DNA of 32,442 nt from Deltaproteobacteria bacterium (lineage in GTDB: Bacteria > Desulfobacterota > Desulfarculia > Desulfarculales > Desulfarculaceae), in the NCBI GenBank assembly GCA_021811275.1, contig JAJZPI010000025.1, positions 1-32,442 of the forward strand, in the 5' to 3' direction. Under the pieces are notes generated by a model. The model worked only from the letters and a program-made list of their open reading frames with translations. It was not told the DNA's origin and ran no database searches. Both the position numbers and the translations under genes were made by a program. Positions 1 to 26,584 of this stretch are shown here, in pieces (positions within the stretch are counted from its first letter, which is position 1; each line of letters begins with the position of its first letter).

Positions 1-70
1 CGTTTCATGGGAGCAGTATTAACGGCGGCGGGGGACGGGCGGCCAGGAGGGCGCTTCCCAAAAACGCTTC

Positions 71-308
71 ATACCAAGCATGCGATCAAAACCATTCATG
101 GCTTTGATCCTCGACCGGCAGGGCAATGGCGTGGTTCTACCCCACAAAGCAAGCGTTATGGGACCCCCGGTTTTGCCCCGCCTCGCCAACGCTTGCGCGC
201 TCGGCGGGCCATCCCCGGGGTCCCCAGCCAACCTCTTGGCTGGGGTTGCTCCATGGCCCGTATGCCAATTAGCGTTCAAAATTAATCGGTTGAGCGCTAA
301 CTTGGTAT
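71..308 (+). repeat. Five-hairpin dispersed repeat, copy A
   Basis: This is one of three related copies in the window; the others are at 17084-17324 and, inverted, 26320-26556. The ends are ATACCAAG and CTTGGTAT, an exact 8-bp terminal inverted repeat. Inside are five hairpins in the order shared by all copies: a GATCAAA/TTTGATC stem (84-109), a CCCCACAAAGC stem (140-162), a GC-rich stem (176-210), a CCCCAGCCAA/TTGGCTGGGG stem (222-245) and a terminal hairpin (262-308). Copy A is the most degenerate copy: its second hairpin has two mismatches. It lies just beyond the 3' end of the minus-strand gene at 331. No coding capacity is convincing. Bases 1-70 to its left hold nothing I can identify. 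Confidence 0.85.
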
Positions 309-330
309 CGTCCGCGCGGATCGCGGAGGC

Positions 331-17019: not shown

Positions 17020-17083
17020 CCCCGTCGTGGTCATACACGAAGATCAACCGGGTGATGACCGCCGGTGGCGGCACGCATGCCTT

Positions 17084-17324
17084 ATCCCAATATGCGATCA
17101 AAGCCATCCATGGTTTTGATCTCCGATAGGCAGGGCAAAAGCTTGGTTCGACCCCACGAAGCAAGCTTTGTGGGGACCCCCGGTTTTTGCCCCGCCTCGC
17201 AAGCGCTTTCGCGCTCGGCGGGCCATCCCCCCGGGGTCCCCGGCCAAGGTTGTTGGTTGGGGGTGAATCCAAGGCCCGCATAACGATTGGCGCTCAAACT
17301 ACTCGTTTGAGCGCCAATCGGAAT
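17084..17324 (+). repeat. Five-hairpin dispersed repeat, copy B
   Basis: Same architecture and orientation as 71-308. Hairpins: GATCAAAGCCAT (17096-17107) with the arm at 17110-17121; CCCCACGAAGC (17152-17162) with GCTTTGTGGGG (17165-17175); a GC-rich stem near 17186-17222; a CCCCGGCCAA stem near 17238-17262; and the terminal GATTGGCGCTCAAAC (17285-17299) with an exact complementary arm at 17305-17319 and a 5-nt loop. It lies between the 3' end of the glycosyltransferase-like gene and the 3' end of the acyl-CoA dehydrogenase gene. Confidence 0.88.
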
Positions 17325-26228: not shown

Positions 26229-26250
26229 ATTTTGGAGAGCGTGCAGGAGC

Positions 26251-26290
26251 GGGGGGAAGCCTTTTGGGTGGCCCCAAAAGGCTTCCCCCC
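26251..26290 (+). terminator. 18-bp perfect hairpin at the end of the Rrf2 operon
   Basis: GGGGGGAAGCCTTTTGGG (26251-26268) pairs with its exact complement (26273-26290) over a TGGC loop, 22 bp past the HD gene stop. No T-run follows, so it may stop transcription weakly or stabilise the 3' end of the mRNA. Confidence 0.65.
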
Positions 26291-26319
26291 GGCCCCCCCT
26301 TCCTAACAGGCCGGGGGTA

Positions 26320-26556
26320 ATGCCAATTAGCGTTCAACCGAGTAGTTTGAGCACTAATTGGTATGCGGGCCAAGGATCCACTCCAGCCAACAAGTTGGCT
26401 GGGGACCCCGGGGGGTGGCCCGCCGAGCGCGCAAGCGCTCGCGAGGCGGGGCAAAACCGGGGGGCCCCACAAAGCTTGCTTTGTGGGGTCAAACCACGCC
26501 TTTGCCATGCCGATATGCGATCAAGGCCATGGATGGCTTTGATCGCATATTGGTAT
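26320..26556 (-). repeat. Five-hairpin dispersed repeat, copy C (inverted)
   Basis: The same element as 71-308 and 17084-17324, on the other strand. Plus-strand order: terminal hairpin arms 26325-26337 and 26347-26359; CCAGCCAAC (26383-26391) with GTTGGCTGG (26394-26402); GC-rich stem 26419-26450; CCCCACAAAGC (26465-26475) with GCTTTGTGGGG (26478-26488); ATATGCGATCAAGGCCAT (26513-26530) with its near-perfect arm (26533-26550). Ends are ATGCCAAT and ATTGGTAT, inverted repeats with one mismatch. It lies between the convergent ends of the HD gene and glnK-like gene. It is the best-folded copy. Confidence 0.88.
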
Positions 26557-26584
26557 AAGTTCAACTTCGCGCTGTTTACGTCGG

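Follow-up and report, generated by a model that had tools for sequence, protein, structure and literature searches.

Elements of the IS1031 group, such as ISLrh, make exclusively 3-bp TNA target duplications (PMC12016507), and NuwaII, eukaryotic relatives of IS5 in the PHIS group, have the target C|TNA|G (PMC4482050). Both the duplication and the target are shared by a dispersed repeat found in the window, i.e., the whole stretch of 32,442 nucleotides of Desulfarculaceae DNA analyzed here (contig JAJZPI010000025.1, assembly GCA_021811275.1). However, ISLrh encodes a transposase, is ~0.85 kb long and has ends reading GAACCTG... (PMC12016507), whereas the repeat is 45–277 bp long, geneless and ends in TACCAA; NuwaII and its PHIS superfamily, in turn, are eukaryotic and have coding members, the likeness lying in target choice only (PMC4482050). 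The prokaryotic MITEs with stable folds, QMITE2, Correia, RUP and ERIC, are likewise short, non-coding, bounded by terminal inverted repeats (TIRs), intergenic and stably folding if transcribed (PMC10969869), but their ends, target duplication and host differ, and while a review describes prokaryotic MITEs as typically AT-rich (PMC10969869), the repeat studied here is GC-rich. As is generally known, BOX elements and BIMEs are also mosaics of repeat modules in varying number; in contrast to these, the repeat has TIRs and a TNA duplication, and its modules are the hairpins of a transposon. Rather than a novel functional RNA, it is mobile DNA of a familiar kind: a new family of MITEs, hosted by a Desulfarculaceae genus without cultured members, in which hairpin modularity is the unusual trait of an otherwise ordinary family. 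Our literature search recovered no MITE reported in this lineage.

The preliminary description of the window had noted three copies of similar length, at 71–308 and 17084–17324 on the forward strand and inverted at 26320–26556. All three are present and alignable, with lengths of 237–241 bp, and copies 1 and 2 are 84–85% identical to copy 3. The ATACCAA-like ends ascribed to them are also present, but the first A and the last T of "ATACC...GGTAT" are part of the target duplication TNA and lie outside the element, the actual ends of which are the terminal inverted repeats TACCAA(T)/(A)TTGGTA. The copies and their target-site duplications are accordingly delimited thus:

69–71, forward strand: target-site duplication TCA, left of copy 1
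72–307, forward strand: MITE copy 1, TACCAAG...CTTGGTA
308–310, forward strand: degraded target-site duplication TCG, right of copy 1
17082–17084, forward strand: target-site duplication TTA, left of copy 2
17085–17323, forward strand: MITE copy 2, with mutated ends TCCCAA...TCGGAA
17324–17326, forward strand: target-site duplication TTA, right of copy 2
26318–26320, reverse strand: target-site duplication TTA, right (3′) end of copy 3
26321–26555, reverse strand: MITE copy 3, TACCAAT...ATTGGCA, the main copy studied
26556–26558, reverse strand: target-site duplication TTA, left (5′) end of copy 3, with a C before it

Convergent genes flank both copy 2 and copy 3, and copy 1 sits at a gene's 3′ end; as had been remarked earlier, no transposase is evident in the window.

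In 60 copies, the left flank reads CTN and the right flank NAG, and N is identical on the two sides in 45 of the 60 (mean 15 and maximum 29 in 10000 shuffles). A duplication of the single base N was considered and dropped in favor of TNA given the CT and AG flanks: a 3-bp duplication TNA inside CTNAG, with the ends TACCAA/TTGGTA, is the only reading that fits them. Across 95 distinct insertions in the genomes read, TNA is found on both sides in 67, of which 57 have the same N (p=7e-25); 53 of the 95 have a C at position −4, and 60 have a G at +4. In a sister genome, G002, another dispersed repeat, at least 190 bp long (...CCCGTGTCCCGCTCTTAGCCCGGCCATTCTTAGGGCACCGGCAGG...), was observed with and without the MITE (L115 1585–1775, L156 6153–6343, L151 1126–1317, L116 2509–2699). 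Its empty copies, in L115, L156, L116 and L151, read ...CCCGCTCTTAGCCCGGCCATTCTTAGGGCACC..., whereas the filled ones carry the element in the first CTTAG (L075) or the second CTTAG (L113, L157). BLAST comparisons of empty with filled copies show an overlap of exactly 3 bp, TTA, in L075 and L113; the joint in L157 is TCA/TTA, with the left copy reading TCA. These paralogous empty sites are the strongest evidence for transposition by a staggered cut. An orthologous empty site was also sought for copy 3: the HD-domain gene beside it is present in all five relatives with no copy detected in its 3′ flank, and gene order beyond that gene is not conserved in the five, so that no clean empty site emerges. 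Comparisons of L011 with L169 and of L095 with L149 yielded nothing informative.

The three copies, though real, belong to a much larger family. BLAST searches of the window's own genome (G000, a 3.95 Mb MAG) gave at least 73 matches from the best 40 of 162 candidates scored, and a pattern for hairpin 3 occurs 53 times in it. The end pattern CTNATACCAA was found 80 times in G000 and 131 times in G002, against 9 and 5 occurrences of the reversed pattern, and a hairpin-1 pattern 98 times in G002. All copy numbers from these searches being lower bounds, the family numbers at least ~80 copies in G000 and ~130 in G002. Within the genus, four of six genomes have the hairpin-1 pattern, compared with none of the 14 from other Desulfarculaceae genera; a DNA search added one weak match in a fifth genome of the genus, G003. 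Among about 85,000 species genomes, a set that may omit the window's own genome, the exact hairpin-1 pattern was recovered from only two Desulfarculus MAGs, both from groundwater, and the plasmids, phages and viral contigs searched held no match. In these searches the family was found in one Desulfarculaceae genus only. The preliminary description had staked its case on further copies being found and on no known transposon end or Rfam family being matched, and the outcome favors a real family. Copies at different sites in G002 are up to 99.4% identical, with a median nearest-neighbor identity of about 96–97%, compared with a median of 86% for full-length copies in G000, indicating recent activity in G002 and older copies in G000. 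Many G002 contigs (e.g., C74, C95, C15, C76 and C121) start or end in or at the edge of a near-identical copy, i.e., the repeat breaks the assembly.

We called genes with a purpose-written codon-usage gene caller and classified the gaps that hold the insertions. The 136 insertions comprise 53 in convergent, 64 in codirectional and 19 in divergent gaps, against 30, 154 and 64, respectively, among 248 element-free gaps. Convergent gaps are hence enriched (39% of insertions versus 12% of element-free gaps; Fisher p=2e-9), divergent gaps account for 19/136 insertions versus 64/248 element-free gaps (Fisher p=0.007), and overlap with a gene exceeds 30 bp in only 2 of the 136 insertions. This distribution is the residue of selection against insertions in genes and promoters; the element might serve as a terminator. 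A strong G+C-rich palindrome (GGAAGCCTTTTGGG...CCCAAAAGGCTTCC; window 26237–26303), possibly a terminator in its own right, lies directly beside copy 3 and follows the HD-domain gene; it gave chance matches to microRNA models of Rfam at relaxed thresholds.

Left open earlier were three readings: a MITE, a BIME-like element or a structured RNA. The TIRs TACCAA/TTGGTA, the TNA duplication, the paralogous empty sites, the length of 45–277 bp with no transposase gene, and the many copies all point to the first, and we hold it very probable that the repeat is a MITE, a family of non-autonomous DNA transposons moved in trans. A REP/BIME or REPIN-type element mobilized by a Y1 (RAYT) transposase would similarly be intergenic, palindromic, high-copy and mosaic, and G000 does have one Y1_Tnp gene. 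This sole RAYT-like gene (G000 C160:926–1255; L037) lies near putative tRNA genes and has one internal TGA; however, neither a copy of the repeat nor a terminal repeat occurs in its 2.7-kb neighborhood, and, from general knowledge, TIR-bounded ends with a staggered-cut TNA duplication are unlike, and unexpected for, the single-strand mechanism of Y1 enzymes. Of the readings weighed here we give this one the least credence.

As for the enzyme that would move the MITE, the TNA duplication in the IS1031 group and the C|TNA|G target of NuwaII suggest an IS5-type DDE transposase acting in trans, most likely IS1031-like. Hits to the families PF01609, PF13359, PF13586 and PF13340 were obtained in G000, with no MITE ends at the loci scanned, and none of the four had a hit in G002, the most active sister genome. 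Three IS5-like transposase genes of G000 considered as partners (L088, L091 and L092, on C243, C26 and C52) were rejected, as they have other ends (AGAACTTATCCG...); stop codons were seen in at least two such genes (C26, C52). When long TIR pairs with matching TNA were sought, only chance pairs or two neighboring MITEs emerged, and a candidate longer element (L151 1090–2462) proved to be unrelated sequence with a 123-bp MITE inside. No autonomous element with TACCAA/TTGGTA ends was found in the searched assemblies; these are fragmented MAGs with many copies at contig ends, in which a multicopy transposon may be missed. To our knowledge, MITE families with no known autonomous partner exist, a partner being typical but not strictly defining. 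The MITE shares the TNA duplication with the IS1031 subgroup, but no IS5-type DDE transposase was found within its ends, and we do not claim membership of the IS5 family or that subgroup. A variant overlapping with the preferred reading is that a DDE transposase of some other 3-bp-duplicating family moves the MITE, which would account for G002 yielding no IS5-type gene and for TACCAA ends that differ from the GAACCTG... ends of ISLrh in the IS1031 group (PMC12016507). Since, among the known families, a TNA duplication within CTNAG points to the IS5/PHIS group, we regard this variant as possible but the less likely course.

The interior of the element is dominated by hairpins. The five hairpins described initially are borne out by the predicted fold of copy 3, which has five top-level hairpins, two with an inner stem (−128.8 kcal/mol; z=−9.95; 0 of 200 shuffles equally stable); copy 2, folded as DNA, gives z=−8.3. 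From fold and covariation, the hairpins of copy 3 are:

26513–26550, reverse strand: hairpin H1, terminal, adjoining the left inverted repeat
26445–26511, reverse strand: hairpin H2, with the inner stem CCCCACAAAG/CTTTGTGGGG
26424–26441, reverse strand: hairpin H3, CGAGCGCTTGCGCGCTCG
26365–26423, reverse strand: hairpin H4, with the inner stem CCAGCCAA/TTGGCTGG
26323–26361, reverse strand: hairpin H5, a terminal palindrome with the right inverted repeat

Across the family, the elements are mosaics of these near-perfect modules, with H1 and H5 terminal and H2, H3 and H4 between them: the inner part of H2 is absent from short subfamilies, and the inner stem of H4 is absent, single or tandemly duplicated depending on the copy. 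Copies with exact duplications cluster at ~45–50, 80, 123, 160, 200, 240 and 275 bp. Both terminal hairpins also exist as solo elements, H5 as a 45-bp element in G000 (L093, L102) and H1 at four unrelated sites in G002, where it forms a palindrome of ~50 bp that is near-perfect. In solo H1 the right half repeats the left end in inverted form instead of carrying the usual right end, which suggests an origin by re-copying of one arm. In L104 (971–1211), L105 (1969–2263) and L049 (about 391–625), part of the interior gives way to another hairpin module (CATTGCACGGGGC...GCCCCGTGCAATG), which also adjoins an IS5-like transposase remnant, near a transposase fragment in L091.

Such folding raises the alternative that the family is a structured, dispersed RNA, either a small RNA or a 3′-UTR element, with its hairpins selected at the RNA level. 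Besides the stability of the fold, it would explain the strong covariation between subfamilies, where 22 stem pairs have both sides changed, amounting to 94 such cells versus 32.5 in shuffles and 8–18 when slid. However, selection on an RNA made from one strand should favor G.U mismatches, and the main subfamily has 92 G.U to 92 A.C (104:101 with more copies); subsets that are small or mix subfamilies are noisier, two leaning to G.U (66:31, 16:8) and one the opposite way (28:35). This parity gives no hint that selection maintains an RNA once a copy has inserted. Covariation inside a subfamily amounts to little (both sides changed in 13 pairs versus 8.6 in shuffles). Variation is nearly as high in paired as in unpaired columns (0.087 versus 0.108; p=0.05), and orientation relative to neighboring genes is unbiased (37 versus 27). 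A search of the whole window against Rfam likewise gave no family at gathering score, and one at relaxed thresholds gave only weak chance-level matches far below that score. We therefore consider an RNA-level role highly improbable. Rather, the covariation belongs mainly to master copies, and each copy seems to decay freely after insertion; palindrome correction by template switching can yield covariation with no RNA function.

If the repeat is taken as a MITE, the element would be excised or copied by a DDE transposase acting in trans, most likely an IS1031-like one from the IS5 family, and would then insert into CTNAG by a staggered cut duplicating the central TNA. The hairpins would be perfect at birth in master copies, through palindrome-correcting replication or through hairpins aiding amplification, and would thereafter decay unconstrained. 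A further point counts against this explanation: near-perfect pairing in every subfamily consensus exceeds the needs of a plain MITE. We speculate, with considerable doubt, that the palindromes are a working part of mobility, whereby extruded hairpins or snap-back template switching might keep master copies perfectly paired, rebuild ends and create the solo terminal-hairpin elements, so that the MITE could gain or lose whole hairpin modules with its transposable ends kept.

The family offers a clean case of a bacterial mini-transposon that is high-copy and recently active, and for which target, duplication and empty sites are all defined. Because its stem changes are paired between subfamilies and yet its mismatches are strand-symmetric, it is also a warning case that covariation in a dispersed repeat is, alone, no evidence for a functional RNA. 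Its discrete modules and solo end hairpins make it a testable system for how MITEs gain and lose interior parts.
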